Origin: Planctomycetota bacterium
GTDB lineage: Bacteria > Planctomycetota > Phycisphaerae > SM23-33
Direction of reading: 5' to 3'
Length of the DNA stretch: 43,466 nucleotides
Assembly: GCA_012729725.1 (NCBI GenBank)
Contig: JAAYCO010000032.1
Location: forward strand, 1 to 43,466
In this document: positions 14,578 through 33,541 of the stretch, one piece after another
Layout: each line of letters begins with the position of its first letter
Position numbering within the stretch: position 1 is the first letter of the stretch
Position numbers and translations under genes: made by a program
The notes under the pieces: model-generated
Databases searched by the model: none
What the model saw: only the letters and a program-made list of their open reading frames with translations
What the model was told of the DNA's origin: nothing

Positions 14578-15609
14578 CTATCTGCGCTTGGCGGGCATCT
14601 TCCTGCGCACGTAGGCCACGTGGCTCATGATGTTGTCCTGCAGGTCGCGGTAGGCGGGGGTGTCCCAGTCGTTGCTTCGCGGCAGCATCATCTGGAGCGA
14701 ATTCCAACGCATAAGCGACTCTCGCCACTTCTGTGCCTGCTGGCTGATCCAGGCCTGGCTGTACTCGTCCTGCACCCTGCTTATGAGCTCGTCGCGTGCC
14801 TGGATGAACATGCCGTGCACGTTCGGGTCGTCAAAATCCACCGAGTTCGCATACGCCAGGTGCAGCTTGAAGGCCATCACGCACGCCTGAAGGTCGGCGC
14901 GTCGGAAGTTGCGTTTGGGCCACAGCGCCCGGGCCTGTTCAAGCATCTCGGCTGCGATATTGAGATTCTGGTGCCGCTCGATGGGCTGGTAGAAAGCCTC
15001 GGATATGTCGCGTTCGCTCAAACGGGCGGGCTGGTTCGCCTTGGCGTCGCTCTTTTTGAGGCTCGCAAGGAATATGATCAGCACGACCATCGCCGCCAGA
15101 TAAGCGCCGCCGAAGATGATGTACTTGCGGTATTTCTTCAGCGCGTCGCTGCCGCTTGCGGCGGCCTCTGACGCTACGGGCGAGGCCGGTTCGTCTGTGG
15201 GGGGCTGTTCGGGCAACGGTTCCTGCACTTGCGGGGGTTGTTGCTGCTTCTGGGTCTGCACCCTCATGCTTCTGTATGCGGCGATGGCGCCCGACGCGTC
15301 AGCTCCGGGTGCGATGAACAGGATTTCGGTTTCCGCGCCCGTGCCTAAAACATCGCCCGTGTCCAGAAGCACTCGCTTGCCGTGCTTGAACTTCTTGCCG
15401 TTGATGAGGGTTCCCCTGTCCGAGAGATTCTCGACAAGCCAACCCTCTGCCGTGAGATCGAGCTGAAAATGTTTCCGCGAGGCGTACGCCTCCTGCAGCA
15501 CCAGTGCGCACTGCGGGTCGCGCCCGACGACAAGCTGGTTGTGCCGCAGTTGAACCCGCGCGCCCTGTTGAGGCCCTTGCATGAATATCAGTTCGGCCCA
15601 CTGCGCCAT
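14578..15609 (-). CDS. FHA-domain membrane protein, last gene of the Tad operon
   Basis: A 343-residue protein: an FHA domain at about 6-98 with the phosphothreonine-reading residues in place (GR at 29-30, SRKH at 44-47, N70-G71), then a Gln/Pro-rich linker (about 118-150), one transmembrane helix (162-184) and an alpha-helical domain outside the membrane plane (about 200-343). FHA domains dock on phosphothreonine made by Hanks-type kinases, and such a kinase is encoded in this same operon. The ATG overlaps the tadC stop by one base (TGATG), implying coupled translation. In-frame sequence further upstream lies inside tadC and is not used. The C-terminal helical part is not recognised. Confidence 0.85.
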   Translation of the reverse strand: MAQWAELIFMQGPQQGARVQLRHNQLVVGRDPQCALVLQEAYASRKHFQLDLTAEGWLVENLSDRGTLINGKKFKHGKRVLLDTGDVLGTGAETEILFIAPGADASGAIAAYRSMRVQTQKQQQPPQVQEPLPEQPPTDEPASPVASEAAASGSDALKKYRKYIIFGGAYLAAMVVLIIFLASLKKSDAKANQPARLSERDISEAFYQPIERHQNLNIAAEMLEQARALWPKRNFRRADLQACVMAFKLHLAYANSVDFDDPNVHGMFIQARDELISRVQDEYSQAWISQQAQKWRESLMRWNSLQMMLPRSNDWDTPAYRDLQDNIMSHVAYVRRKMPAKRR

Positions 15610-16592
15610 CAGAACAGGCCTCCTCGAATCGCCTTGAGAATCATCGGCCCGAAGACCGTAAGCACCACGGCCATGACAAGCAGCAGGCAGGGCAGCAGTA
15701 TTCGAACGCTGGCTACCGCGGCTGCGTTTTCGGCTCGCACGTACCTCGCCTGCCTCAGCAAAGTCGCCTGGTCGTGAAGAACGTCGCCAAGCGGCGTGCC
15801 AAGCTCCTCGGCCTGCACCACGCTGGAGATAATGCCCTGGAGCGAGTCGAGCGGAATGCGCTGCGCCAGATTCGCCAGCGCCTTGGGGCGCGTTGAGCCC
15901 AACTCCATTTCGGCAAGCATCGTTCGCAGCTCTACGTTGAACGGGTCGTCGCCCTGCTCTCGCACGACGGTCTTGACTGCCTCGGTGAAGGTGGCGCCGG
16001 CGCCCATCGCCAGCGAGATGAGATCCATGGCGTACGGCACTCGGCGGGCGATGCAACTGATGCGTTTGTGGGCGCGATCGTAAAGCTGGTAGATTGCCAG
16101 GCCCGCGCCAACTGTTGCGCCCATGAAAAACGCGAAGGCGCTGAACTGCCGATTGATCAGCAGGCTGCCCGCCTCGAACAGCACGCCCAGAATGAACCCG
16201 CAAAGCAGGGCAAGCGCCAGGTATTCCTCAGCCGTGTAGTAATTGGGGCTTCCGGCGGCGACAAGTTGCTTTCTGATCCATCGCTTGAGGCCGGGCATCG
16301 CCAGGCGGTGCGTCAGCAGAAGCAGTAGCCACATGAGCGGGCGGCAGAGGGGGTTCTCGAAGATGGTCTTTCTGTCTTCGTGGCCGGTTGCTATTGCCGC
16401 CTCGCGCTGGGACGACATGCTGATTTCGCCCGGCTGGCTGAATACCGACACGATGAGCAGGCTTATCGCCAGGAAACCCATCGCGCTTATCGCCACTCTG
16501 GACCATGCCGCGCCGGTGGCGGCCACGCCCACGGCGACCAGAACCGCCACGACAACCAGAATCGCCAGGACTATGAAGGTTTGCCTGTTCAT
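15609..16592 (-). CDS. tadC: Tad pilus inner-membrane platform protein TadC
   Basis: Inner-membrane partner of TadB that couples ATPase motion to Flp pilin assembly. The 327-residue protein has two N-terminal helices (about 5-27, 31-50), two central ones, then a type II secretion F-type (T2SSF) domain (about 185-300) with PYAMDLISLAMGAGATFTEA and EELGTPLGDVL, the family hallmark, and a last helix (about 300-320). The start follows tadB by a few bases; the stop overlaps the FHA gene. Confidence 0.9.
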   Translation of the reverse strand: MNRQTFIVLAILVVVAVLVAVGVAATGAAWSRVAISAMGFLAISLLIVSVFSQPGEISMSSQREAAIATGHEDRKTIFENPLCRPLMWLLLLLTHRLAMPGLKRWIRKQLVAAGSPNYYTAEEYLALALLCGFILGVLFEAGSLLINRQFSAFAFFMGATVGAGLAIYQLYDRAHKRISCIARRVPYAMDLISLAMGAGATFTEAVKTVVREQGDDPFNVELRTMLAEMELGSTRPKALANLAQRIPLDSLQGIISSVVQAEELGTPLGDVLHDQATLLRQARYVRAENAAAVASVRILLPCLLLVMAVVLTVFGPMILKAIRGGLF

Positions 16593-16595
16593 TGA

Positions 16596-17459
16596 TCAGA
16601 TGTCCACCGACATGATCTTGCGAATCCAGACGAAGCCCAGCACGTTCAGCAGCAGCACCAGCATGATAAGCAGTTTGCCCAGGCCGTCGGCGAACATGGC
16701 TTCGAGCCCGGCCGGATCGATCATGAAATAGTAAATGCCGATGACGACTATCGGCATCGCGCCCAGCCAGCGCGACGTGGCCCTGCCTTCGGCGGTGAGG
16801 GTTTTGACGCGATTCTCAAGCCGCTGTATTTCGCGTATGGAGTTGCCGATGCGTTCGAGGGTCTCGCCAAGATCGCCGCCGCGGTGGCGGTGGGTCTGCA
16901 GGGCCGCGAACAGCAGGCGATAGTCGCTGGAGCCGATTCGCAGGGCCGAGTTTTCCATGGCTTCTTCAAGCGGCACGCCGTATTCGTACTCTCGCAGAAG
17001 GTGGGCCACCTCGTGCTTCAGCGGCGTCGGGCCGTCGCGTGCAAGAAGCCCAAGCGACTGGACAAGATTCAATCCCGCCCGCACGCCGCTGGTAAGCGTG
17101 TGAATTCCGCCGACAAGCTGCTTCTCAAGGCGATGAAGGTGGCGTTTTCGCAAGGCGTGCAGGGCAACCGTCGGAATGACCATCCCCACGGCAGCGCCGA
17201 GCAGGGCGCCCATGCCGCTGTCGGCCACTTGCATGCCTATCAGCGCCAAAAGGCCCATGCCCACCAGCGTAAGAATCGTGACCATGCGCGGGCTGATGTT
17301 CAGCAGCAGCTTCTTTTGCAGTATCGTGGCGTACAGATGTTCCTGCCGGCGGATGATTTCCTTGACGGGCCTGTACGCCAGCACCGCGCCCGCTGCCGAA
17401 AGCACAAAGACCACCGCCGAGGTGATGACAATCTGCGTGGCTGATTCGGGCAGTATCAT
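16596..17459 (-). CDS. tadB: Tad pilus inner-membrane platform protein TadB
   Basis: Platform protein of the Tad machine. The 287-residue sequence opens with a transmembrane helix (10-30), has a pair of central helices (about 58-100), a T2SSF domain (about 115-240, with LTSGVRAGLNLVQSL and RGGDLGETLERIGNSIRE) and two C-terminal helices. Starts in an ATGA overlap with the cpaF stop and ends 3 nt before tadC. Confidence 0.92.
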   Translation of the reverse strand: MILPESATQIVITSAVVFVLSAAGAVLAYRPVKEIIRRQEHLYATILQKKLLLNISPRMVTILTLVGMGLLALIGMQVADSGMGALLGAAVGMVIPTVALHALRKRHLHRLEKQLVGGIHTLTSGVRAGLNLVQSLGLLARDGPTPLKHEVAHLLREYEYGVPLEEAMENSALRIGSSDYRLLFAALQTHRHRGGDLGETLERIGNSIREIQRLENRVKTLTAEGRATSRWLGAMPIVVIGIYYFMIDPAGLEAMFADGLGKLLIMLVLLLNVLGFVWIRKIMSVDI

Positions 17460-19336
17460 GCGAACACCTCGATGCTCAGGAAGCCTTGTTCGATAAGCTC
17501 TTCGCTGAAGGAGGGGATGTAGCCCGTGTGCCTCAGCCGAGCCTTTTCGCCGATCCCGCGCATCACGAAGACATCTTCGACGGTAACCCTGGTGGTTTCG
17601 GGGTCTATGCCCGTGATCTCGCTGATGTGCGTCACCCGCCGCCGGCCGTCGGGCAGACGGGCCATCTGGACGATGACGTGCATCGCGGCCGCGATCTGCT
17701 CGCGGATCGCCCTGACTGGCATTTCAACCGCCATGAGCACCATCGTTTCGAGTCTCATGACCGCGTCGATGGGACTGTTGGCGTGCAGCGTGCTCATCGA
17801 GCCGTCGTGTCCGGTGTTCATTGCCTGAAGCATGTCGAGGGCCTCAGCTCCGCGGCACTCGCCGACGATGAGGCGGTCGGGCCGCATTCGAAGGGCGTTC
17901 TTCACCAGGTCGCGAATGGCGTACGCGCCTCTGCCCTCGATGTTCGCCGGGCGGGTTTCAAGCCGCACGAGGTGTTCCTGAGGCAGTTGAAGCTCGGCGG
18001 AGTCTTCAATAGTGATGATTCGCTCTTGCGGAGGAATGAAGTTGCTCAGCACGTTCAACGTGGTGGTTTTCCCGCTGGCGGTTCCGCCAGAGATGATGAT
18101 GTTCTTGCGTCCCATCACGCACGCGCGGAAGAAGTTCGCAGCCGGCTCGGTCATTGTGCCGCGCTCCACCAGGTCGTCCACGGTGAAGGGGATTCGCGCG
18201 AACTTTCGTATCGTGAGCACCGGCCCGCAGAGGCTCAGCGGGTTGATAACGGCATTGACGCGCGAGCCGTCGGGCAGGCGGGCGTCGACAAGAGGCGTAG
18301 ACCGGTCGATCCTTCTGCCGACGGGCGTGATGATCCGCTCGATGATGCTCTGGACGATCTCGTCGTTGAAGAAGCTCCGGCCGGTGTTCTGCACGCTGCC
18401 GTCCTTCTCGATGTAGATCTTGTCCTTGCCCACCACCATGATCTCGTTGACGTTGGGCATTTCAAGCAGATCCTGAAGCGGGCCGTAGCCCAGCACGACG
18501 TCCTCGATTTCCTTCGAGAGCATCCGCCGCACGACATACAGGCGCAGGTCGGCGTTGACTCGCTGGGCGGCCTTCTGGCTGTGATCGGGCCAGCCTTTTT
18601 CCACCATCGCCACATCTTCGCGAACCGTGTGCCGGCGCAGCTTCAGTGGAAAGCTGCTGATGGTGTCGCCGATCAGGCGGTTGAGCACATCCTCGTGCTT
18701 CGCTGAAAGCAGGTCAGTTTTCTCGTAGCCGTAGCTGTACATCAGCTTTCCGGTGGCGCGCCGGGCGATTTCCGTCACGACACTGCGCCAGAGGAATTCG
18801 CCCAGCAGGTAATCGGCCATCTGGTCGTCAACCTCGGCCTGGTGCGCGGCGATGATCTCGGCGAGCTTGCGCTTGATCAGTACGACGTGCTCTTCGTCGG
18901 CGCTTCCGCGCTGGCCGGTGACTCGCAGATTAAGCTTTTCGAGCAGCTCGGCATGCATGCGGTGTTCGAGTTCGATCACGCGCTTGCGTGGAGACACCAC
19001 CTTCTGCGCCGCGCCGATGCGCCGGGCTGCCGGTTCCATCATGAAAAGGCTGAATTCGCCAACGCGGATTTCGTCGCCGTACTCTATCTTGCACTTCTGG
19101 CGGCAGGGAATGGTGTTGTTGGCGACTGTAACGCCGTTAAGACCCAGCGATTCAAGCCAGAACGAGCCGTTCTGATGGATGATCCTGGCGTGCCTGCGGG
19201 AGACAAACGGGCTGCGCAGCGTGACGCTGTTTCCGTCGTCCCTGCCGATGCTGATCTCCTCGCCGTCGGCCTTGACCACTTCCCGCTGATCGTTGTACTG
19301 GTTGTAGACCCAGATCTCCAAGGTAGTCTCCGTCAA
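17456..19336 (-). CDS. cpaF: Tad pilus ATPase CpaF/TadA with an N-terminal FHA domain
   Basis: Secretion-superfamily ATPase that powers Flp pilus assembly. Unusual in carrying an FHA domain (about 15-100) with G31-R32, S46..H49 and N68-G69 intact, ahead of the normal CpaF body: the N-terminal helical domain (about 130-280), then the motor with Walker A GGTASGKT (417-424), the acidic box [10 protein letters not shown], Walker [10 protein letters not shown] and the His box STLHAN (515-520). The 626-residue frame starts at a TTG overlapping the cpaB stop; a second in-frame TTG at 19321 has GGAG six bases upstream and may be the true start, without loss of the FHA domain. Its stop overlaps tadB as ATGA. 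A phosphothreonine reader on the motor implies control by the kinase in this operon. Confidence 0.92.
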
Positions 19337-20112
19337 TCTCGCTGAGTCACTGGAATTCCCGGCAATGCGCGAAGAAGGTCGGGGTTTACCTTGCCGGCAT
19401 CGGGCACAATTGCGCTGTGCGGCAGCACCTCGATCTCCAGGCCAAGCGATGCGTGAGCAAGGATCGCCTCCATTTGAAGCGAAGCTTCCCTGCTGAGTTC
19501 AATGGTGATCTCACGATAGCTGGTGAGGCCCTCATCCCTTCGGGCGTAACTATCGCTCAGCGGGCTTTCATTGATAGTCTTTCCGCCAACGCCAACCACC
19601 TTAACGCCCTCGATAATCCGGTATGGCTGAACTACGCCGTTCACCGGAAATCTGCCCAACAGGTTGACAAGATCGCCGGGGCGCAGGATGTCGCCCGGCG
19701 CTTTTTGCAGGCGTATCGCCTTGGCCACCATTCCCGGCGTTATAAGCGACGAAGGCGGTGGATCGGCCTGATGCTGAATGTGGCTCCAGAGCAGCGTTTC
19801 ACCAGCCCGCATCGAACGGTTAATGGTGTAGCCGTTGAAGTTGTTCTTCTCTTCCGGCCGGCGCAGAACGACAACCGGTCCAAGGCCCTTGGCATGGTGG
19901 GCGGCAACTTCATTCACTTCCAGTCGCCTGGCGTCCAGAGCAGTGCCCTGCTTGTAGTCAACGGCCACGCGAAGCAGGTAAACCGTTTCGCCCTTGGCCT
20001 CATCTCGCACCTGGGTGATCTGCCAGTTGTACACCAGCACCACCAGCACCCCCAGCACCAGGGCTACGATGAGCATTCCCTTGTTCTGCACAGCAGGTGT
20101 CTCGTCCGCCAT
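19333..20112 (-). CDS. cpaB: Tad pilus assembly protein CpaB/RcpC
   Basis: Periplasmic protein of Tad machines, thought to link the inner-membrane platform to the secretin. The 259-residue protein has one N-terminal transmembrane helix (about 12-30) and an SAF-like region: VAVDYKQGTALDARRLEV (about 50-67), MRAGETLLWSHI (about 101-112) and GMVAKAIRLQKAPGDILRPGDLV in two joined segments, which is the CpaB hallmark. AGGAG precedes the ATG. Separated from the gene before by a 67-nt gap with two hairpins. Confidence 0.88.
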   Translation of the reverse strand: MADETPAVQNKGMLIVALVLGVLVVLVYNWQITQVRDEAKGETVYLLRVAVDYKQGTALDARRLEVNEVAAHHAKGLGPVVVLRRPEEKNNFNGYTINRSMRAGETLLWSHIQHQADPPPSSLITPGMVAKAIRLQKAPGDILRPGDLVNLLGRFPVNGVVQPYRIIEGVKVVGVGGKTINESPLSDSYARRDEGLTSYREITIELSREASLQMEAILAHASLGLEIEVLPHSAIVPDAGKVNPDLLRALPGIPVTQRD

Positions 20113-20136
20113 GGGTTCTCCTATACTCTATTGCGA

Positions 20137-20180
20137 CATCTGTTACGTGCGAACAGATGCGGAATCGCAAGAACCGATTC
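20137..20180 (-). other. Two tandem RNA hairpins between operon genes
   Basis: Stem GAATCG/CGATTC (20162-20167 with 20175-20180) begins at the upstream gene's stop codon; stem CATCTGTT/AACAGATG (20137-20144 with 20152-20159) follows. Neither is followed by a U-tract, so they are more likely processing or stability elements than terminators. Confidence 0.5.
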
Positions 20181-20722
20181 TAACGTGTTGCTTTCAAAAC
20201 TGTGAGAGTTATGTCCAGTTCGCCGCCGTTGTCGGCGGGCTTTATCACAAGAATCATGTCGCCCTGATTGCCGGCATATATCAGCCTGTGCATTTCCCCG
20301 GCGGCATCCTGGGCGATCTTTCGGCAGTTGAGGGCCTCGAAGCCCGATTCGTAGTGGGCAATGGCGTCGCTGATCGCGCCGGCGTAGCGGTACTTGCCAA
20401 CCAAAGCTTCATCTCGAACCGTCCGCACATACACTTGCCTGGCGCCGGGCGGCGGGGCGGGTTCCAGCTCTTCGGTGGACGGCCTCACCGGTGAATCAAT
20501 CAGTTGTTCGATGGAATCCAGCGCGGCAAGCGGTCTGTCGGGCTGGGGCTTGTAGGCTTTCACGTCGATGGGGCGAGTTTGTTCTTCAACCTGCCTGGGG
20601 CCAACGAACGCCTTGTGGGCTTCCAGAGCGCAGAACACCAGCGATACCGCCAGCGCCGCCCAAAGTATGGCTCGCGCCAGTCGAGTCTTCTTGCGTGCAT
20701 TGTCCACTTCGCCGCCGGCCAA
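20180..20722 (-). CDS. Hypothetical single-helix membrane protein of the Tad operon
   Basis: Not recognised. The 180-residue protein has one transmembrane helix near the N-terminus (about 17-36, RAILWAALAVSLVFCALEA), a Pro-rich stretch (about 50-95) and a compact C-terminal domain with two-strand endings (DMILVIKPAD, ELDITLTVL). Start is TTG, two bases after the tadE stop, with a G-rich ribosome site. Its place between tadE and cpaB suggests a structural accessory of the pilus. Confidence 0.75.
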   Translation of the reverse strand: MAGGEVDNARKKTRLARAILWAALAVSLVFCALEAHKAFVGPRQVEEQTRPIDVKAYKPQPDRPLAALDSIEQLIDSPVRPSTEELEPAPPPGARQVYVRTVRDEALVGKYRYAGAISDAIAHYESGFEALNCRKIAQDAAGEMHRLIYAGNQGDMILVIKPADNGGELDITLTVLKATR

Positions 20723-20724
20723 TG

Positions 20725-21345
20725 CTACCAGCCCCCCAGGTACAGGTCGCGAAAGGCGGCGCCGAAATTCTGCGATTGTGGGGGAAGCGTTGTCAGCATT
20801 TCGTTCAGGCGGCTGAGGAACATCTCGTTAAGAGCCGACTCGCACCGCACCTCGGACCTTCGCCACTGCACGCCGTCGCGGACATGTCTGCCGGCGATAG
20901 GCCCGTTGAACCGCTGCCACAAGCGGACGTTCGAAGGGAACTCCGCCCGCAGCTCGATTCGCAGCCCGCGCGGGAACCTTGCAAGAACAAGCTCGTTCGC
21001 CAGCGTGCCCGCGGCGTCGCCCTGCGAAGATGCGATGTCCACATACGATTGAAGCACTGTCGCCGGGCCGGAATCGGATGTTGTGTAAACGTCCGTTCCT
21101 TTGCTTGCCAGTAAACCCTCGTTGATCTGCTGGTTCGACGGCATGCCTTTTTGCGACAAAACTCGCCAAACCGCGTAGCGATCGGCCATGCGGACGTGTT
21201 GCTGGTTGACCATGGACCAGCCGAACCAGAAGGTCAGCGCCAATACCGTCGCCAGCAATGGAATGACCATCACGAATTCCACCATGGCGGCGCCGCATCG
21301 GCGGCGGGGCTGGCGCAAGCGGCGGTATGATCTCAAAGCGTTCAT
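20725..21345 (-). CDS. tadE: TadE-like pseudopilin
   Basis: The 206-residue protein has a basic leader and the pseudopilin cleavage signature CG-AAMVEF (Glu at +5 after the Gly), followed by the hydrophobic helix VMVIPLLATVLALTFWFGW (about 25-43), as in TadE. The mature region is soluble with conserved Arg pairs. TadE is cut by the prepilin peptidase and acts in pilus initiation or surface anchoring. It starts one base after the TadG-like stop (TAAGATG). Confidence 0.85.
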   Translation of the reverse strand: MNALRSYRRLRQPRRRCGAAMVEFVMVIPLLATVLALTFWFGWSMVNQQHVRMADRYAVWRVLSQKGMPSNQQINEGLLASKGTDVYTTSDSGPATVLQSYVDIASSQGDAAGTLANELVLARFPRGLRIELRAEFPSNVRLWQRFNGPIAGRHVRDGVQWRRSEVRCESALNEMFLSRLNEMLTTLPPQSQNFGAAFRDLYLGGW

Positions 21346-21346
21346 C

Positions 21347-23359
21347 TTAATGATTCGTATACGTATTCAATATCGGCAGGAGTCGTTGAAAGTACTCGCT
21401 GGAATTCAGCACTTCGTTAGGATGCACGAGGTTGTCCACCAGCGGGGCCTGGTTTTGGGCGGCTTCCAGGCGGTCCGCCCAGTCGTCCCACATTGTCACC
21501 GGCGCCAGGCTTGCCCGCCAGTCCTGCGTCCACAGATCCCAGCTTGTCCGGTTGAACACCTTGGCCTGCGCCACGGCGTACATCGAACCTGACGGGTTGA
21601 TAGACGAGAACCGGCTGCCCCAGACGTCGGCGGCTGGAGAACCGCGCGCCACGCCAAGGTATGAGAAGTGCGACCGGCGCACGCCTTTGTCGTTGTGAGG
21701 GTCGATCTGGTCGTAGTCGCCCACGTTGGTGTCAAGAAGATACGGCGCGGGCAGATCCTGCTCGTTGCTCCAGTTGGCCGGGTTTGTAACCTCGACTTCT
21801 TCGCCCACGTTAATGCCGCCCCATATGAACCACTGCACGACGTAGACCTCGTGCCATACAGGTTCGCTGTTGGGATCGTCGGGGTTTTCTAGCTGAAGAT
21901 GCAGGCCAAGATCCCAATCCTCGGTCGTTTCGTAGGTCCAGGTATCTTTCCAGATGTGTTCTGCGATTTTGGGCGCGGGCCATCCCTGCGGATCGACCCA
22001 TCCGTCGAGCCAGATTGCCATGGGCTCATCGCTGTTGGCGCGATACGTTCCCGGACTCAACCACCCTGGCCCATCGGGCGGAACCGACGAGCAGACCTCC
22101 ACCAGGTAGAACATCGTGGAGTGCACATTCTGCGGGGCAGGAATCGCCACGGCCCTGGCCTGATTGTAGTCGGTGATCCAGTCGGGGTAGACGACGGTTA
22201 CGGGGCTGGGGGACACGAACATGTAGTCGAGCTTGATGCGGCTAAGGAGACGCATGTAATAGTCGAAAAACGTGTCGCTCAACTCGCGGTAGGCGTACCT
22301 GTCAATGTGCCGCAGAGCCCATTCCACGGGTCCATACGTGCGGTAGCCCATAAGCTCGTATTGTGTCGCGCGGTAGCCGCCGCCTCCGGAGCGATCCCTC
22401 GCCCCGGCGCCTCGCGTCCTGCCGCCAATGGCGATCTGCCCGCCGCCGCCTCGTTCATCGCCACGTCCCGGAGTCGGCTCAACCCACTCCCACGCGGTGG
22501 GGCTGGAATAGTAGATACGCCACTGAAACAGATTCGCCCACGGTCCCAGCCGGCGCCAGAAACCGGCATCCGGAATGCCGCCTCCCCGACCACCTTCATC
22601 TTCAAGGCTGCAACTCTGGCCGTCCACGCGGAAATCGCCCATCATCACAGGCTTGAAATGGTCGAATCGCCCCCGGACGGCGGGAAGCTCCGGAACCAGC
22701 GGCGCAATGAACGAGGCGTCAGCGCCGTTGGCCTGGCCGAAAGTCACCGCGTCCGCCTGGGCCAGATAACCCGCCGACTGCACCGTCGCCGTTGAAAGAT
22801 CGTCCAGAGTTGCCGCCGCCTGCCACAGCGCGCCTTCGCCCCGACCGGTATTCCAGTGCGTGATGGATGACATGTCGAATCCACCGCGATTCAACAGGGT
22901 GTCCACTGGCGTGAGGATATCCCTTTGCGTCGCAAGCCTGGCCCGAATGGCTTCGAGTCCATCACGCAGCAACTGCCCGCTTCGCCCCGATTCGTTGATT
23001 CCTCGCGCCAACTGGGCAGCAATGCAGCCTTCCCATTGAGTTGCTTCCTTCAGGCTCATGCCGGTCGCCAGCGGAAGCGAGTCGAGCACCGGCGCAAGGG
23101 CTATCATCCGGGCCTGGGCGCAGTTGTTCATGGCCACGACGTTCATCGATCTGGCCATCCATCCCGCGCCGCTGATGGCTGCCGAGTCGGCTGAGTGCTG
23201 CGCCGACATGCGCCGGTTGACCACGTCGCCAAGGTTGTAAACGTAGAATACCAGCCCCACCAGGATCGAAAGCGCCAGCAGCGTGATGATAAGCACTTGT
23301 CCGCTTCTGGCGTGCAATCGCACCCGCTTGCGCGGCAAACATCGCATGAATGGGTGCAT
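21347..23359 (-). CDS. TadG-like Flp pilus assembly protein
   Basis: A 670-residue protein with a basic leader, SGQVLIITLLALSILVGL (about 19-36) and then NRRMSAQHSADSAAISGA, the hallmark of the TadE/TadG-like family in which an N-terminal helix leads into a conserved alanine/serine patch. It lacks the Glu+5 of true pilins. The large exported part contains a Gly/Arg-rich stretch around residues 300-335 and many aromatic and Trp-rich segments, with no von Willebrand domain that I can make out. The ATG at 23357-23359 with GAGGTAAC upstream is preferred to an ATG seven codons earlier. Follows the kinase gene by 26 nt. Confidence 0.8.
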   Translation of the reverse strand: MHPFMRCLPRKRVRLHARSGQVLIITLLALSILVGLVFYVYNLGDVVNRRMSAQHSADSAAISGAGWMARSMNVVAMNNCAQARMIALAPVLDSLPLATGMSLKEATQWEGCIAAQLARGINESGRSGQLLRDGLEAIRARLATQRDILTPVDTLLNRGGFDMSSITHWNTGRGEGALWQAAATLDDLSTATVQSAGYLAQADAVTFGQANGADASFIAPLVPELPAVRGRFDHFKPVMMGDFRVDGQSCSLEDEGGRGGGIPDAGFWRRLGPWANLFQWRIYYSSPTAWEWVEPTPGRGDERGGGGQIAIGGRTRGAGARDRSGGGGYRATQYELMGYRTYGPVEWALRHIDRYAYRELSDTFFDYYMRLLSRIKLDYMFVSPSPVTVVYPDWITDYNQARAVAIPAPQNVHSTMFYLVEVCSSVPPDGPGWLSPGTYRANSDEPMAIWLDGWVDPQGWPAPKIAEHIWKDTWTYETTEDWDLGLHLQLENPDDPNSEPVWHEVYVVQWFIWGGINVGEEVEVTNPANWSNEQDLPAPYLLDTNVGDYDQIDPHNDKGVRRSHFSYLGVARGSPAADVWGSRFSSINPSGSMYAVAQAKVFNRTSWDLWTQDWRASLAPVTMWDDWADRLEAAQNQAPLVDNLVHPNEVLNSSEYFQRLLPILNTYTNH

Positions 23360-23385
23360 ACTGTTACCTCGTAGCATCAAGCCTG

Positions 23386-26088
23386 CTATTCTGAAGAATC
23401 GTTCAGTTGCTGCTCGACCTGCGCGATAAGCTCATCGATCTCGCTGTTGTCAATTCCGGCGTCGCGTTGCTTGCTTTTGGCCGTCTTGAGGTGGGCCATG
23501 GCCGCGTTCCAGTTCTTCAGTTGGATGTATTCCTTGCCGTTCTCGAGGTTTTCCTGATAAATGGAGAAGGCTATCTTCTTGTTCGCCAGTTCCGGCGACT
23601 CGGCCTTCGTCCTGGCCTGCGCGTAAGCCTCTCGCGCCTTGCCATAGTGCCTGGCGGCCAGATGCTCATCTCCCTTTCGCAGGAGGCCTTGATACTCCTC
23701 TTCCAGGGTGGTCGCCGCCTGGCGGGCGGTGATCAGGTCGCCCTCGGAGGGGCGAACCTCGCGGGCCTTTTCGTAGGCCTCAATCGCCTCACGATGCTTG
23801 TTCTCCTTCCGCAAGCGGTCGCCTTCAGCAATCAGCAGGCCAAAGCGGCATTGGGAGACTCGTTCATCCATCGGCGGCTCTCCGACAATCGCGGCCGCCT
23901 GGGAGAACTTCTCCAGAGCCTCGGCCAGCTTGTCCTGAAGCACCAGAGAGTCGCCTTCGGCGACAAGCGTTCTTCTTCGCTCGCTCATGTCAAGCAGCGC
24001 GATCTGCTCGGTAGCCTGCTGGTTGTCGGGATTGTGTTCGAGGGCCTTGGCGAAAAGCCTTCTGGCATTCGCAAGATCGCCCTGGTCAACGGCCTGCTGG
24101 CCTTGCTCAAAAGCCAGTTGTGACTGAAGCATGGCGATTCGCTGCGTCAGTGCATCGGAAGCGACTATGCCCGCGGCGTCTGTCAGGGCGGACAACTCCG
24201 CGCGCCTGTCGCCGGCGTCACTGGCGGCGTCAGCGCGAGCGATCGCCTCGAAATACTTCTGCCGGCCTGCAAGATCCGGGGCCTTTTGCCCAATGGCGGC
24301 CTTGGTCTGCTGAATCGCGGCCTCGATTTCCTGGGCCTTCTGCGTCATCGTTCGAGGGGGCGGGAGCTTGTTGGACGGCGCCATGTTGATCGCCCGCTCA
24401 TAGGCGGCGGATGCGCCGGCGAAATCCTGGCGCGACGCCAGCTCGTCTCCGGTGCTGACCGCCTGGAGAACCCTCTGGTTCAGGATCGCCAACTCGATCT
24501 CGTGCCACAGCGCATGTTTCATTTCGATCTTATCCGGCGGCATCGCCCCTGCAAGTTGTTGTTCAAGGCGGGTCTGCGCCTCGGTGAACCTGCCCTGTTC
24601 GTAGTCATACCGGGCCTCGGCGATGGTCATGCGGAACTTGCGCTCAAGCGTGCGTTCCGTCTCGAAGCGTTCAGTTTCGTCAATTATTCCGCTGCACCAT
24701 TCGACAAGATTCTTCCTGGAAGCCTGAATCTCTTTAGCGTTTTCGCGGGCCTTGCTTGCGAGCGTAGCGACGTTGTCCCAGTCTTCGTCGCTTTGCGCTG
24801 TCAGGAGTCCTGCCCTTGCGGCGGCCAGCGGCGCCATTACCGATGCCTTCGCCGCAGCCTCAAAGGATCTGGGTTTTGCCGCCACCAGCTCGAATTCATG
24901 CGCAGCCTCTGCGAATCTCGCGGCCTTGTAGTGATCGTCAGCGCTGCGGTAGGCGGCAAGGACTTCACGCCGGGCCTGATCCTGACTACTGCTGTTGCTG
25001 ATCATCAGGGCGACGGCTGTCACAATCAGCAGCACAAAGGCCGCCGAGGCGGCGATAATCTTGGTCTTGAGGCTGAGCTTCTGCCTCGGAATCTCGGCAG
25101 TGGGGGGAATAATAAGCTCAAGGTCCGTGGAAGACGGGCTGGAAACGGCACTGGCAACCTGCTGGAGCCTCGGGGCGACAGGCGCCGCTTCCGCAGCGCG
25201 GGCCTTTGGCGAGAACGTCTGCTTGATGGCCCTGCCGAGGGCCTCCATGTTGGCGAACCTGTCGTTGGGATTCTTCGCCAGCATCTTCATGACGATGTCG
25301 GATAATGGCGCGGGAACCCCCGGCGAGATTTCGCCAAGCGGCGGGGCGGATACGCTCATGTTTCCGTGCCACTTCATCCACCGCATGGCCTCGCTGTGCG
25401 GATCGCGCACCAGATCGGCGAAGACCTCGTTGAACTTGGGCCTGCCTGCCAGCAGCTCGTATGCGACCATGCCAAGGCTGTACATGTCGGCCCTGCCGTC
25501 GATATCGGCGCCCTCGAACATTTCCGGGGCCATGTACTTCGTGGTTCCCAGAAGCATTGATGTTTGGGCCGAGAGGCTGGCCGCGACGCCAAAGTCGGTA
25601 ATCTTGGGCCTTAGCCCATCTTCTACGATGATGTTGGCGGGCTTGATGTCCCTATGGATAATTCCCGCCTGATGCACGTCATGCAGGGCAGCGGCAAGAC
25701 GCCACAGTATCTGGAGGGCGGCCTTGGGCTCGGAAGGCCCGGCAGTCTCTCTAATAATCGTTTCAAGGCTGTGGCCGTTGAGGAACTCCATTACGATGAA
25801 CAGGCCGTGCTGCTCGGCCACCAGTTCGTGAATAGTGACTATCGCGGGCTGCTGCGCGCCCAGACGGGCAAGAATGCGAGCTTCCCTGCGGAATCGTTCG
25901 AGAAACTTTTCGTTCTCGGCCAGATGCGACGAGATCTGCTTGATTGCCACGTGGCGATCAAGCAGTGAATCGTAGCCTTTGTACACAATGGCCTGACCGC
26001 CGATCGCTCGACGTTCGACTATCTCATACTTCCCGATGGTAGTGCCTATTGGCAACCCCACCTGACCGTTGTCTGACGAGTTTGACAT
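23386..26088 (-). CDS. Transmembrane Ser/Thr protein kinase with TPR-like C-terminal region
   Basis: A 900-residue Hanks-type kinase inside the Tad operon. The catalytic domain (about 20-300) is complete: Gly-rich loop GGQAIVYKG, K50 (VAIKQ), E69, HRDIKPAN (HRD 145-147), DFG (165-167) and APE (187-189). A linker leads to one transmembrane helix (about 344-363) and then more than 500 residues of helical repeats, several of TPR type (for example GDLANARRLFAKALEHNPDN, KHREAIEAYEKAREVRPSEG). The repeats would lie outside the cytoplasm and could sense or bind pilus parts. The ATG at 26086-26088 has AGAGG before it; an upstream GTG lacks a ribosome site. Likely substrates, by inference, are threonines read by the two FHA proteins of the operon. 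Confidence 0.92.
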   Translation of the reverse strand: MSNSSDNGQVGLPIGTTIGKYEIVERRAIGGQAIVYKGYDSLLDRHVAIKQISSHLAENEKFLERFRREARILARLGAQQPAIVTIHELVAEQHGLFIVMEFLNGHSLETIIRETAGPSEPKAALQILWRLAAALHDVHQAGIIHRDIKPANIIVEDGLRPKITDFGVAASLSAQTSMLLGTTKYMAPEMFEGADIDGRADMYSLGMVAYELLAGRPKFNEVFADLVRDPHSEAMRWMKWHGNMSVSAPPLGEISPGVPAPLSDIVMKMLAKNPNDRFANMEALGRAIKQTFSPKARAAEAAPVAPRLQQVASAVSSPSSTDLELIIPPTAEIPRQKLSLKTKIIAASAAFVLLIVTAVALMISNSSSQDQARREVLAAYRSADDHYKAARFAEAAHEFELVAAKPRSFEAAAKASVMAPLAAARAGLLTAQSDEDWDNVATLASKARENAKEIQASRKNLVEWCSGIIDETERFETERTLERKFRMTIAEARYDYEQGRFTEAQTRLEQQLAGAMPPDKIEMKHALWHEIELAILNQRVLQAVSTGDELASRQDFAGASAAYERAINMAPSNKLPPPRTMTQKAQEIEAAIQQTKAAIGQKAPDLAGRQKYFEAIARADAASDAGDRRAELSALTDAAGIVASDALTQRIAMLQSQLAFEQGQQAVDQGDLANARRLFAKALEHNPDNQQATEQIALLDMSERRRTLVAEGDSLVLQDKLAEALEKFSQAAAIVGEPPMDERVSQCRFGLLIAEGDRLRKENKHREAIEAYEKAREVRPSEGDLITARQAATTLEEEYQGLLRKGDEHLAARHYGKAREAYAQARTKAESPELANKKIAFSIYQENLENGKEYIQLKNWNAAMAHLKTAKSKQRDAGIDNSEIDELIAQVEQQLNDSSE

Positions 26089-26150
26089 CTGGTCCTCTTC
26101 CACTCGGCGACGCGCCGGATTGAAATATCCGCAAACGCCTGCCGAACATC

Positions 26151-26180
26151 AGCATAACGTTTAACACGCAACATGTTCAA
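26151..26180 (-). promoter_or_regulatory. Possible internal promoter before the kinase gene
   Basis: Minus-strand TTGAAC (26175-26180), 18-bp spacer, TATGCT (26151-26156), in the 117-nt gap ahead of the kinase. Moderate match only. Confidence 0.3.
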
Positions 26181-26205
26181 GAAAGCCGGACTTATCCGCC
26201 GTTGT

Positions 26206-27126
26206 TCATCGAGCGCGCGGAAAAACCTCGCGAACTATGTAATCCTGCTGTCCTTCATTCGTCAGGGTGCAGGTGGCGTAAATCTCGGCGCCGTATTCAC
26301 CCGCGCCGAAAGGCAGGTCAACGCCGCCGTCCGCCAACGAGCGGAACACCTTCGAGGCGTACGGAACCGACAGATAGAATTTGTGATTCACGTGAGCCAC
26401 GATGTCTTCGCCCGGATCATATGAACTTCCATTGGCGGGGGGGGCTATCCACACCCTCGTGTAGTTCCGCGCGTAGCCCATGCGGTTGGGCCACGATCGC
26501 ATCATGTTGCCCAGTTGCGTGCGGCCATAGGCTTCGAAAAAATCCTGCACGCCGTTCTGCAACTCCGTCACGTCGGCCTGCGGGGCGCTGGGCGACGACG
26601 ACGAGATCGGAAAAATCGCCCACAGCGCGGCATTCTCGATCGCGCGCATCTTCGCGCCGCCTTCGTGCGCCTGAACGATGTTTCGCGGCTCGCTGTCTGT
26701 CTCCGTGGGAATCTGCACCACAGCGCTCCTGGCGGCGCAGAAGGCTGCGTAATTCACGCAGATGTTGCCGCCCAGCAGAAGCGACGACTGGGTCATGACC
26801 AGCACAATCATCAGGGCGATGGGCATGACCAGCGCGAATTCGAGTATTGCCGAGCCTTCCTGCCTGCCCATGCGGCCCTGCGCCCTGCCCGCATGAAGCA
26901 ACACAACAATTATTGCGCCAAGAACCACGGCGCACACGAATGTCACCGCCGCCATTGTGATGAAGATGGGGCTCTGGACCGCTCGCCCAAGCCAGCCCGA
27001 GCCGTTGAACATGACCGAAGCGCCGCCGGCCCATGCCACGCAAACCGCAGCCGACAGCGAGGCCAGAGTCGCCCACAACAGCGACAGGCTTGTTGCCGTC
27101 TTTGATGATGTGGCTGAGGTTTTCAT
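26206..27126 (-). CDS. TadE-like pseudopilin with two extra N-terminal helices
   Basis: A 306-residue protein. It begins with two hydrophobic helices (about 15-38 and 54-80) that are not part of the usual TadE, followed by a basic segment and the pseudopilin signature QEG-SAILEF (Glu+5) with the helix ALVMPIALMIVLVM. The rest (about 120-306) is soluble and ends EVFPRAR. The extra helices may hold it in the membrane after processing. Start taken at the ATG at 27124-27126; a TTG six codons upstream overlaps the peptidase gene. Confidence 0.8.
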   Translation of the reverse strand: MKTSATSSKTATSLSLLWATLASLSAAVCVAWAGGASVMFNGSGWLGRAVQSPIFITMAAVTFVCAVVLGAIIVVLLHAGRAQGRMGRQEGSAILEFALVMPIALMIVLVMTQSSLLLGGNICVNYAAFCAARSAVVQIPTETDSEPRNIVQAHEGGAKMRAIENAALWAIFPISSSSPSAPQADVTELQNGVQDFFEAYGRTQLGNMMRSWPNRMGYARNYTRVWIAPPANGSSYDPGEDIVAHVNHKFYLSVPYASKVFRSLADGGVDLPFGAGEYGAEIYATCTLTNEGQQDYIVREVFPRAR

Positions 27127-27133
27127 GCCGGTT

Positions 27134-27724
27134 TCATAATCCAAGCAGACTGCCGCTGCCCCGCCAGATCGCCTCTACAATTGCGGCAGCGGAACCTATG
27201 CAAAACGCCACTGCTAATGGCGCCTTCGGACTGTCGGCAACTGCTGGATCTATGGTCTTGCGAAACGCCAGGGCCAGCATCAGGCAGTGCCATACCCTGC
27301 CCAAAGTCTTCCTGATAACGCCGGCGCGCGCCATGACGATAATAGCCATGATCGCGGCAGCGATAAGCCCGAAAAACAAGGCGGACAGCGCGAATCGCCA
27401 ACCCGTCAAGGCCCCGACCGCCGCCATCAGTTTGACATCTCCACCGCCGACGCCGCCCATGCGCCACGCCACGAACATGGGCGCGAATCCGACCGCCAGG
27501 CCGGCAAGTGAACCGGACAGGCCAAGCGCATGCTCCGAGCCCCACATCCCGCCGACAAGGGCGTGTCCGACCAGCCCCGCCAAAGCCGCCGGTAGCGTAA
27601 TGTAATTCGGCGCCAGGCCCTTGCGCAGATCGACCACCGCCGCCCAGGGCAGTGCAACGGCAAGAAGAACATACGCCCACAGAATACTTACAGGCGGCAT
27701 GCAATCGCCCTGCGGAAACAACAT
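27134..27724 (-). CDS. cpaA: Prepilin peptidase CpaA/TadV
   Basis: Inner-membrane aspartic protease (family A24) that cuts Flp prepilin and TadE-like leaders after glycine. The 196-residue polytopic protein has both catalytic aspartates: D32 in VVDLRKG and D96 in the GVGGGDVKLM motif (GxGD type). Six or so hydrophobic segments. Starts by a one-base overlap (TGATG) with the flp stop; a second ATG eight codons on, with AGGG before it, is also possible. Confidence 0.9.
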   Translation of the reverse strand: MLFPQGDCMPPVSILWAYVLLAVALPWAAVVDLRKGLAPNYITLPAALAGLVGHALVGGMWGSEHALGLSGSLAGLAVGFAPMFVAWRMGGVGGGDVKLMAAVGALTGWRFALSALFFGLIAAAIMAIIVMARAGVIRKTLGRVWHCLMLALAFRKTIDPAVADSPKAPLAVAFCIGSAAAIVEAIWRGSGSLLGL

Positions 27725-27933
27725 CAGGGAGTAACCGGATCGTCAACGCCGCGGATGTCGTTCCATTTTTCGCTGGCCCATTCGGAGATTTCGTTTCGAT
27801 ACCACAGCACGACGGCCAGCAGCGGCAGCGCCACGGCTGCGATGATCAGGATGTACTCGACCATGTTGGCGCCTTGCTCGTCCCGGTACAGGGATTTCGC
27901 CACCGCCGCGAACTTCCGAATAGCGTTACTCAT
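27724..27933 (-). CDS. flp: Flp-type pilin 1
   Basis: Structural subunit of the Tad pilus. The 69-residue protein has a 22-residue leader ending EQG, cleavage G-ANMVEY with Glu5-Tyr6 as in Flp pilins, and one long hydrophobic helix (about 27-43). The short tail is acidic and Trp-containing (SEWASEKWNDI). Overlaps the prepilin peptidase start by one base. Confidence 0.92.
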   Translation of the reverse strand: MSNAIRKFAAVAKSLYRDEQGANMVEYILIIAAVALPLLAVVLWYRNEISEWASEKWNDIRGVDDPVTP

Positions 27934-27983
27934 GTTGTTCTCGATTCCGGGTCAGACTGCTCGATTCCGCCGGTGCTGACCTT

Positions 27984-28187
27984 TCACGGCAGCGGAAGTG
28001 TCTGCAAAAATGTGACCATTTGGTAGTACGAGCTCAGTGCGTTCAGCAGCGTCGTGAAGACATACACCATCGGCAGGCCGATGCCCGCCAGTAACAGCGT
28101 ATATTCGACCGACGTCTGCCCAGCCTGATCGCCCGCCAGACCGGCTCGGCGTATATACTCAATCCCTTGCCTGGGTTGTGGATGCAT
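27984..28187 (-). CDS. flp: Flp-type pilin 2
   Basis: A 67-residue pilin or pseudopilin with leader ending QAG, cleavage G-QTSVEY (Glu5-Tyr6) and the helix TLLLAGIGLPMVYVFTTLL. It differs in the mature region from pilin 1 and has no acidic tail. The ATG at 28185-28187 is fixed by a perfect AGGAGG six bases upstream. Lies 11 nt after the second cpaF. Confidence 0.88.
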   Translation of the reverse strand: MHPQPRQGIEYIRRAGLAGDQAGQTSVEYTLLLAGIGLPMVYVFTTLLNALSSYYQMVTFLQTLPLP

Positions 28188-28198
28188 AGCGCCTCCTA

Positions 28199-29314
28199 TC
28201 AATCATCGGCAAGGAAGATAGTTTGTGTTAAGCCCCAACTGTCGCGTAACACGCGAACCTTGGGCTCGTCACGGAACGACGACCTGGCCCCGGTGTGCGC
28301 CAGCTTGCCCACGCCCAGCCTGCCGGCCTGACCCTCGAGCAGCTTATAAACGAACATGTCCTGAAGCCTGTAACGCCCGTCCTCGCCCAGCGGAAGAACC
28401 TCTGACACCTGCGTCAGGGCCCGCCTTCCGTCGGTGAATCGAGTCACCTGGACGATTACGTCAATCGCCGAGGCGATCTGCGACCGAAGAGCATGAAGCG
28501 GCAACTCGACCTTGTTCATCATCGCCATGGTCTCGAGCCGGTTCAATGCGTCCAACGCCATGTTGGCGTGAAGCGTTGACATGCTTCCGGCGTGACCGGA
28601 CGTCATGGCCTGAATGACATCCAGCGCCTCGCCGCCGCGAACCTCGCCGATGATGATTCTGTCGGGCCTCAGCCGCAGCGATCCCCTGAACAGCTGGCTT
28701 ATTCCGACCGCTCCCCGGCCCCATCTGTCGGGCTGGCGGGTCTCAAGCGATATCACGTGATCCTGCTGAAGCTCAAGTTCGCTGCTGTCCTCGATGGTCA
28801 CAATTCGCTGGTGCGCCGGAATGAACCCGCTCAGCACGTTCAACAGGCTGGTCTTGCCGCTGCTCGTGCCGCCGGTGACGAGAATGTTTTTCTCGGCAAG
28901 CACGCACGTCTTGATGTATTCCATCACCTGCGGCGTCCAGGCGCCAAGCTCCAGCAGATGCTGCGCTGAGAAGTTGACTTTGGCGAACTTGCGAATGGTC
29001 ATGCACACGCCGCGCCGGCTCAGCGGAGGAAGAATCACGTGAACCCTGCTGCCGTCGGGCAGGCGCGAGTCAACCAGCGGATTCTCGTTCGTCAGACGCT
29101 TGCCTGTGAACTGAAGCACGTTGTTCACGGCAGACATCAGCGAATCGGCGTCCTCAAACCGGGCCTCCGTGCGCTCGAGCCTTCCGCCTCGCTCGACATA
29201 GATTTCGTCGTGCGAGTTGACCATGATCTCCGAAACCGCCGAATCGCGAAGAAACGACAGTATCGGGGCCAGGAAGTGATCGACAGTCCGCTCGTAAATG
29301 TTGACAGTGCTCAT
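28199..29314 (-). CDS. cpaF: Second CpaF/TadA-type ATPase (short form)
   Basis: First gene of the Tad operon. The 371-residue ATPase has an N-terminal subdomain (about 5-120) with SEIMVNSHDEIYVERGG and [20 protein letters not shown], Walker A GGTSSGKT (148-155), TIEDSSELEL, Walker B RIIIGEVRGG and the STLHAN box. It lacks both the FHA domain and the long helical region of the ATPase at 17456-19336. The ATG at 29312-29314 (GGGATCACG before it) is used; the frame is open 25 codons further, to no ribosome site. Two distinct ATPases in one Tad operon may mean separate extension and retraction, or two pilus types sharing parts. Confidence 0.92.
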   Translation of the reverse strand: MSTVNIYERTVDHFLAPILSFLRDSAVSEIMVNSHDEIYVERGGRLERTEARFEDADSLMSAVNNVLQFTGKRLTNENPLVDSRLPDGSRVHVILPPLSRRGVCMTIRKFAKVNFSAQHLLELGAWTPQVMEYIKTCVLAEKNILVTGGTSSGKTSLLNVLSGFIPAHQRIVTIEDSSELELQQDHVISLETRQPDRWGRGAVGISQLFRGSLRLRPDRIIIGEVRGGEALDVIQAMTSGHAGSMSTLHANMALDALNRLETMAMMNKVELPLHALRSQIASAIDVIVQVTRFTDGRRALTQVSEVLPLGEDGRYRLQDMFVYKLLEGQAGRLGVGKLAHTGARSSFRDEPKVRVLRDSWGLTQTIFLADD

Positions 29315-29380
29315 CGTGATCCCGTTGCCGGAGGGCCCAAGCCCGATGCCGCCCTGGCGCCGCTGCCGGACTAAAACGAC

Positions 29381-29408
29381 AGTATACATACTAACGCTCG
29401 GCGGACAA
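29381..29408 (-). promoter_or_regulatory. Likely promoter of the Tad operon
   Basis: Minus-strand TTGTCC (29403-29408), 16-bp spacer, TATACT (29381-29386). The leader would be about 60 nt. It faces away from the aminotransferase promoter at 29451-29479. Confidence 0.5.
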
Positions 29409-30954: not shown

Positions 30955-32181
30955 TCATTTTCGGCGAAGAAACTCAAATCTGCGCCTGCCCAGAACCCTT
31001 GGACGCCACAGAGAATCAAGCGCGGGAGTAAGCGTGTTCATCGCAAGCACCGCCATGAAGGCTGGTATGGGCGTGTTGACGTAGAGTTGCAGCAGCATCG
31101 CAAGCGAGCCGATTCCAGCGCCAAAGATAACCTGGCCGCCCGCACCAGTGGGTCTGGAGGTTGACTCGCCGGCAAGGAAAAACGCGCTGAGAACAATTCC
31201 GCCCGACAGCAGCCTGTACATGACGTACGTCAGCGCCACCTCGCCCTCCTGGTGCAGTACGGGCCACCACACCTCGATGGCCACGTCGTCCGGTCCGGCG
31301 AGGTACACAGGCGCCGCTGCGGCAACGGCCGCCGCGGAACACAGCACCGCCACAGGAAGCTGCCATTTCAGATAGTTGCGATAGATAAGATACAACCCCG
31401 CGACAACGATTACGATTGCGCAGGTCTCGCCAATGTTGCCGGGCACTGTTCCCATGAGCATCTCGCCCATAGAGGGCAGTTGGCCCAGGGCGGCAGGCGG
31501 GGCCTTAGGCAGTTCATTGGGCGGCGGAAGATAGGCCAGCGCGCTGTACGACGCCTTTGATGGACGAAGCCCGGACAGCACAACGTCGCTTCTACGAGAC
31601 ACAAAGGCATCGGCGTTTTCCGGTGCGCAACTGCCATGCCATTTTCGCCAATCATCAACAATCCTGCCCTTGTCCGCATCGCCCCACAGGAGGCGGTCCT
31701 GGGCAAGCACCGGCCAGTATTCGGGGTTCATCGCGCCGGCGAACAGCACTGCCGCCGCCAGCCTGCCCACCAACGCGGGCTGCCAGAGAAAATGCCCCAC
31801 GCCCCCGAACACCGCCTTGCCCACAATAATCGCAAAGGCCGAGGCGACAACGGGAACATACCACGGCGCCGTGGGCGGAAGGGTAAGCGCAAGCAACACG
31901 CCCGTAAGGTATGCATGCGATCGGCCCATCAGCGCCGGCATGCGGGTGACGCGGTAGTACAGGCGCTCTATGTTCGCGCAGGAGCCTATGCAAATGGCGG
32001 CAACAACCGCCGCCCGCCAACCGAACAGGACTATGCCCGCGCAAAGCGGGGCGCTCGCAGCCGCCAGCGTGACGATAAACACGGTGCGAATGCTCTCCGG
32101 CGCGCAAATAAGCGGGCCGCGAACATCCATTCCGATCTGTGTGGCGTGATGCGCCTGTGGTTGGCCGGTCAACAGGCTCAT
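30955..32181 (-). CDS. rnfD: RnfD/NqrB-type membrane subunit, lacking the SGAT flavin motif
   Basis: Polytopic membrane protein (408 residues, about nine helices) of the NQR2/RnfD/RnfE family, which in Rnf complexes moves electrons between ferredoxin and NAD while pumping ions. Family features seen: GRSHAYLTGVLLALTLPP (about 86-103), GKAVFGGVGH and QPALVGR (121-140), GNIGET (248-253) and FFLAGESTSRPTGAGGQVIFG in two joined parts (334-354). The SGAT motif whose threonine carries covalent FMN in RnfD is replaced by SGLRPS (203-208), and the loop around it is long. ATG at 32179-32181 overlaps the rnfC stop as ATGA; a longer frame upstream lies within rnfC. No rnfG, rnfA, rnfE or rnfB follows; a terminator does. 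Confidence 0.82.
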   Translation of the reverse strand: MSLLTGQPQAHHATQIGMDVRGPLICAPESIRTVFIVTLAAASAPLCAGIVLFGWRAAVVAAICIGSCANIERLYYRVTRMPALMGRSHAYLTGVLLALTLPPTAPWYVPVVASAFAIIVGKAVFGGVGHFLWQPALVGRLAAAVLFAGAMNPEYWPVLAQDRLLWGDADKGRIVDDWRKWHGSCAPENADAFVSRRSDVVLSGLRPSKASYSALAYLPPPNELPKAPPAALGQLPSMGEMLMGTVPGNIGETCAIVIVVAGLYLIYRNYLKWQLPVAVLCSAAAVAAAAPVYLAGPDDVAIEVWWPVLHQEGEVALTYVMYRLLSGGIVLSAFFLAGESTSRPTGAGGQVIFGAGIGSLAMLLQLYVNTPIPAFMAVLAMNTLTPALDSLWRPRVLGRRRFEFLRRK

Positions 32182-33515: not shown

Positions 33516-33541
33516 TCCCATCCTTTCGTGGCGGCGAAGCC

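Follow-up and report, generated by a model that had tools for sequence, protein, structure and literature searches.

Motor ATPases that carry a forkhead-associated (FHA) domain are already known from Tad and Tad-like machines. Class III CpaF proteins, which are mostly betaproteobacterial, are built as FHA-IDR-CpaF (IDR, intrinsically disordered region), and no kinase is mentioned in their description (PMC12019362). In the Tad-like Kil apparatus of Myxococcus xanthus, FHA is likewise fused to the ATPase and more FHA proteins are present; its authors suggest a signalling cascade, and the word kinase is absent from the main text of their paper (PMC8460266). Here we describe a Tad operon of a Planctomycetota bacterium (Phycisphaerae, SM23-33; assembly GCA_012729725.1) that encodes an FHA-CpaF fusion together with a transmembrane Hanks Ser/Thr kinase and a membrane-anchored FHA protein. 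It occupies the minus-strand run 14578-29389 of a 43,466-nt stretch, hereafter the window (contig JAAYCO010000032.1, C145 in our numbering), sampled from a genome of 250 contigs and 3.22 Mb that is 96.64% complete. The operon encodes a Tad machine and, judged from its sequence, probably also a phosphothreonine circuit dedicated to controlling the pilus, docking and gating included.

The FHA-CpaF of the window shares the N-terminal FHA of class III CpaF, with FHA, linker and ATPase in one protein. Betaproteobacterial FHA-CpaF loci were recovered in our searches as well, and no kinase was detected in their available flanks. Kil has been reported without TadG and with a short secretin (PMC8460266), whereas the window operon contains a PF13400 protein and a kinase and lacks a secretin. 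Identity of the operon with Kil was rejected because TadG is present and a secretin is missing from the operon.

Membrane kinases paired with FHA proteins are known from other machines. In the threonine phosphorylation pathway of type VI secretion systems (T6SS; PpkA-Fha-PppA), a membrane Hanks kinase and an FHA protein are encoded with the machine, and phosphothreonine brings the FHA protein to the membrane complex (PMC5995506). The machine is a different one, however, and a PppA-type phosphatase was not found here by PP2C_2 search; membership in this pathway was rejected since the operon is Tad and the genome has no PP2C_2 match. The type VII system T7SSd has a membrane kinase with helical ectodomain (TsdD) beside an FHA-bearing motor ATPase (TsdC), but it is an Actinomycetota secretion system with an FtsK-type ATPase and not Tad (PMC11217815). 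ArnA/ArnB of the archaellum offers an FHA protein and Hanks kinases that regulate a type IV pilus-related filament; there, in contrast, the FHA is separate from the motor and archaellation is repressed (PMC4858521, PMC4187195). According to the initial annotation, made from the window alone, no Tad system of this make-up had been described. This fails for the FHA-fused CpaF, known from class III and Kil. For the kinase, the open-access literature searched contained no report of a Tad system together with a Ser/Thr kinase. What appears new is the putative kinase and FHA circuit on a Tad pilus, not FHA-fused CpaF by itself.

The transcription order is CpaF-family ATPase, two Flp-like pilins, prepilin peptidase, TadE-like protein, Hanks kinase, TadG-like protein, second TadE-like protein, a protein of no recognised family, CpaB, FHA-CpaF, TadB, TadC and the membrane-anchored FHA protein. 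All genes that the initial annotation had placed in this run are present there with the domains it named (profile matches). The tight spacing it described is also seen, with 4-bp overlaps at FHA-CpaF/TadB and FHA-CpaF/CpaB and a single exception, 117 bp ahead of the kinase gene. Core features of Tad are present, namely two CpaF/TadA ATPases, TadB and TadC, prepilin peptidase, Flp-type pilin, TadE/TadG-type minor components and CpaB. In the whole genome only five Hanks kinases pass the Pfam cut-off and FHA domains number four; the operon holds one of the kinases and two of the FHA domains, and the two other FHA proteins are encoded on contigs C171 and C22. Since these domains are so few in the genome and the arrangement recurs in relatives, it is more than a product of chance.

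To follow the arrangement, FHA-CpaF was searched in 60 relatives and its loci were retrieved; a phylum-wide search and further loci were added later. The order CpaF2-CpaA-TadE-kinase-TadG-TadE-CpaB-FHA.CpaF-TadB-TadC-FHA is kept in relatives with sufficiently complete loci. Wherever TadG was recognised, the kinase gene lies between a TadE-like gene and TadG, in the window family, in its order and in several further families of the class, and this mid-operon arrangement reaches families f16 and f17. Lack of conserved gene order had been named in advance as an outcome speaking against the initial annotation; the order holds in the window family and in several other Phycisphaerae families. In a second arrangement, found in Planctomycetia (a label inferred from phylum-level kinship) and in some Phycisphaerae, the kinase gene lies 3' of TadC or of the membrane FHA gene. 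At four distant loci (L198, L201, L204, L218) an open reading frame (ORF) with a zinc-ribbon-like CxxC start replaces the membrane-FHA gene, between TadC and kinase.

Kinase-free loci were also encountered. Neither a kinase nor most Tad genes were seen at L188 (Phycisphaerae, 13 kb of upstream sequence). Distant FHA-CpaF loci (L199, L200, L203, L205-L207, L209) have neither TadC nor kinase; L212, L213, L216, L217 and L219 have TadC and no kinase within the available flank. A kinase is missing from the Tad loci of the same class that have no FHA (L065-L071). Beyond the phylum, FHA-Tad genes are accompanied by a kinase in a metagenome-assembled genome (MAG) titled Deltaproteobacteria (L077), in an Acidobacteria MAG (L128) and in an unassigned bacterium (L118). 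The L077 FHA-CpaF is 45% identical to that of the window, with FHA and kinase genes alongside.

The kinase and the fusion motor are inherited together. Across 80 named loci FHA-CpaF and kinase are associated with Fisher p = 7e-4, relatedness ignored. Among 39 high-quality relatives, 24 have both (in one, G028, FHA-CpaF is only a fragment at a contig end) and 15 have neither. At E <= 1e-70 the kinase search never gave more than a single match in a genome, and the few mismatches between kinase and FHA-CpaF fall in genomes of low completeness (G001, G002, G020, G026, G055). A tree was built from 82 kinase domains. In it, 48 Tad-linked kinases, of which 35 are mid-operon and 13 are not (among the latter the L208 kinase, adjacent to its operon but on the opposite strand), group in a single clade with support 100/100; the 28 kinases labelled nonTad fall outside it. 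Six further Tad-adjacent kinases (L117, L118, L128, L196, L215) also lie outside and may have been recruited separately. Kinase and FHA-CpaF are correlated in patristic distance, with r 0.96 over 48 loci and 0.91 when only the mid-operon type is taken, values that vertical descent alone could yield. Genomes G058 (L059/L063) and G214 (L189/L190) have two kinase-FHA Tad systems each, one per arrangement; their paired kinases are as divergent as their CpaFs, i.e. each kinase goes with its own operon. Sequence comparison thus shows how the kinase-FHA-Tad unit is built, that it is conserved and that its parts are inherited together.

The window kinase consists of kinase domain, disordered juxtamembrane linker, one transmembrane segment and a helical ectodomain with tetratricopeptide repeats (TPRs, per Pfam). 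Its Lys, HRD, DFG and APE motifs are intact, as had been claimed, and the catalytic Lys, HRD Asp, Asn and DFG are retained in all 35 mid-operon kinases. Hydropathy predicts a single transmembrane segment shortly after the kinase domain in 48/48 kinases of the clade. An AlphaFold2 model built from a five-sequence alignment (mean pLDDT 67.4, low) has a disordered linker at 295-343 and a mostly helical ectodomain. PknB and PknA are the closest solved kinases; the best 50 Foldseek matches cover kinase domains only and leave the ectodomain fold without a match. PADLOC matches to the defence kinase PD-T4-6 reflect generic Hanks domains, and a role as defence kinase was rejected on this account.

Within the otherwise variable linker one residue never changes: Thr330, present in 35/35 mid-operon kinases. 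The next residue is Ala in 86%, and Pro stands four positions further on in 97%. The pattern T-x-x-[ILV]-[PT] is found in 34 of these 35 linkers, with 1.1 expected when each linker is shuffled, a figure that is descriptive since inspection of this very alignment had brought the motif to light. With Met allowed (T-x-x-[ILVM]-[PT]) it occurs in 35/35 mid-operon kinases versus 2/28 other transmembrane kinases. Thr330 is therefore a candidate FHA docking site; no comparable conserved phosphosite was seen in the linkers of FHA-CpaF and membrane FHA proteins. The motif resembles the phospho-TssL peptide DLPpTVVEI that recruits Fha in T6SS (PMC5995506). Docking of this kind also has a precedent in mycobacterial PknB, whose phosphorylated juxtamembrane linker binds FhaA, as stated in the passage of PMC12077195 that cites Roumestand 2011; PknB differs in being a PASTA kinase, and what it controls is the cell wall and division rather than a pilus.

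Two candidate readers of such a mark are encoded in the operon. The 626-aa FHA-CpaF has its FHA at 28-93 and T2SSE at 285-560. In the AlphaFold2 model of the membrane FHA protein (mean pLDDT 69.9), FHA (5-101) is followed by a disordered linker, a transmembrane segment and a helical periplasmic domain, and its best Foldseek matches are the FHA domains of GarA and OdhI. An FHA was scored as canonical when it had R, S, H (GR, SxxH) and the STNG Asn. The claim that FHA contact residues are all intact holds for the FHA-CpaF of the window (R, S, H, N) and not for its membrane FHA, where Arg replaces the canonical STNG Asn. Both FHAs could be read in 30 operons; 19 of these have a canonical FHA-CpaF, 12 a canonical membrane FHA and 29 at least one of the two. 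Retention is reciprocal: f1-type operons retain canonical CpaF FHA and f16/f17-type operons canonical membrane FHA (Fisher p 2e-5, reflecting few evolutionary events). The sole operon with no canonical FHA (L050) also has Met at +3 and has lost the alpha-C Glu. A sub-clade of Tad kinases (L043, L045, L048, L050) lacks this Glu.

Taken with conserved order and co-inheritance, the candidate docking threonine lends strong comparative support to the earlier proposal that the kinase is wired to the pilus, and we infer that pilus assembly is controlled by phosphorylation. An envelope signal, which may be pilus load, surface contact or wall state, would act on the ectodomain and make the kinase cluster; the TPR region might in this way sense the pilus or the surface. 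Clustered kinases would autophosphorylate, Thr330 just inside the membrane included, and phospho-Thr330 would dock the FHA of the CpaF hexamer, that of the membrane FHA protein, or both. The canonical reader would be the CpaF FHA in the window and the membrane FHA in f16/f17. Docking would hold the motor at the TadB/TadC platform close to the kinase and so gate pilus extension or retraction. In a more specific version, which we offer tentatively as a serious possibility short of probable, the kinase would be a dedicated subunit of a receptor-kinase-gated Tad pilus; its invariant juxtamembrane phosphothreonine would recruit the FHA motor, and control would be direct, not via transcription or cyclic di-GMP.

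Several observations weigh against such a circuit. No phosphatase of the PP2C_2 family, the only one searched, is found in the genome, which leaves reversal unexplained. The membrane FHA of the window reads RSHR, without the STNG Asn, at a column that varies in relatives. None of the 13 kinases of the 3'-end type carries the Thr motif, and the docking step is thus not universal to the kinase family. The hydrophobic residue at +3 suits common FHA preferences, a rule drawn from FHAs in general. Of the 35 mid-operon kinases, 27 have the alpha-C Glu where the alignment places it and 8 lack it there. Finally, the patterns of co-occurrence and of FHA residues cluster on the tree and do not represent independent events.

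Alternatively, the Tad machine might serve as a surface sensor, the kinase phosphorylating targets elsewhere in the cell and the FHA domains merely anchoring it to the machine. The FHA proteins on C171 and C22 are possible off-operon readers for such signalling, and a conserved docking Thr would be just as good an anchor if the motor were not gated; still, an FHA fused straight to the motor and strict co-inheritance with this fusion fit local control better, and we consider the sensor role rather unlikely. Distinctly unlikely, in our estimate, are FHA domains acting as phosphorylation-independent assembly modules with the kinase as scaffold. T7SSb, with EssC FHA and EssB pseudokinase, is a precedent (PMC11217815), the phosphate-contact Ser and the Asn are mostly gone from the FHA-CpaF of f16/f17, and the Asn is mostly gone from the f1 membrane FHA. 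Kinase Lys, HRD Asp and DFG Asp are nevertheless kept in 35/35 mid-operon kinases, at least one fully canonical FHA in 29/30 operons, and the Thr is invariant. That the kinase gene came to lie in a Tad operon by coincidence is hardly credible and was rejected on conserved order, single clade and co-occurrence: Hanks kinases can be numerous in Planctomycetota (one searched genome gave as many as 47 matches), but the f1 genomes searched carry only about 4-7, and kinases of other subfamilies also adjoin FHA-Tad loci (L117, L118, L196, L215).

Features of the operon are listed in Table 1. For the second ATPase, ATG starts at 29314 or 29389 are alternatives. A secretin (CpaC/RcpA) gave no match within the window; three secretins are encoded on other contigs, one of them GspD-like and none assigned to Tad. 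TadZ and TadD gave no match among the operon proteins scanned, and counts in a promoter and terminator scan were not far from shuffle means and thus uninformative. RnfD-like and RnfC-like genes lie near the operon (30955-33521). A pair of dissimilar CpaF ATPases in each operon is a conserved feature (28199-29389 and 17456-19336 in the window; L039-L060). Tad pili have been described as running on one bifunctional CpaF (PMC12019362); the paired ATPases possibly divide extension and retraction between them.

Table 1. Features of the kinase-FHA Tad operon, in transcription order (positions in the window)
Feature	Coordinates	Strand	Evidence
Second CpaF/TadA-family ATPase, without FHA	28199..29389	-	T2SSE E 2.6e-57; TIGR03819 E 6.2e-82; Walker A GGTSSGKT
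Small Flp-like pilin 1, 67 aa (..GQTSVEYTLLL..)	27984..28187	-	Motif by eye; no Pfam match in stretch scanned
Small Flp-like pilin 2, 69 aa (..GANMVEYILII..)	27724..27933	-	Flp_Fap E 1.9e-6, under Pfam cut-off
Prepilin peptidase CpaA/TadV	27134..27724	-	Peptidase_A24 E 9.7e-17
TadE-like pseudopilin 1	26206..27144	-	TadE E 2.7e-5
Transmembrane Hanks Ser/Thr kinase, 900 aa	23386..26088	-	Pkinase E 3.6e-47; K/HRD/DFG/APE motifs
Candidate FHA-docking motif T330-A-E-I-P, kinase juxtamembrane linker	25087..25101	-	Thr invariance in 35/35 mid-operon kinases; linker predicted disordered
Kinase transmembrane segment	24982..25077	-	Hydropathy and translation
TadG-like protein	21347..23380	-	Tad PF13400 E 2.2e-6
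TadE-like pseudopilin 2	20725..21345	-	TadE E 5.8e-7
Protein without recognised family	20180..20722	-	No Pfam or NCBIfam match; weakly similar ORF at equivalent place in L039 and L042
CpaB/RcpC	19333..20112	-	TIGR03177 CpaB E 2e-11, under curated cut-off
FHA-CpaF fusion motor ATPase, class III CpaF architecture	17456..19336	-	FHA E 3.8e-13; T2SSE E 8.2e-59
TadB platform protein	16596..17459	-	T2SSF E 2.6e-19
TadC platform protein	15609..16592	-	T2SSF E 2.3e-17
Membrane-anchored FHA protein	14578..15609	-	FHA E 8.3e-13

FHA-fused CpaF motors have been catalogued so far without a known writer of the mark they should read. In the operons described here, a candidate writer and two candidate readers are inherited as one unit together with a candidate site, Thr330, so that switching of the Tad motor becomes accessible to direct tests. 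If true, control by a kinase plus FHA, as seen in T6SS and proposed for T7SS, would be at work in a pilus of the type IV family as well.

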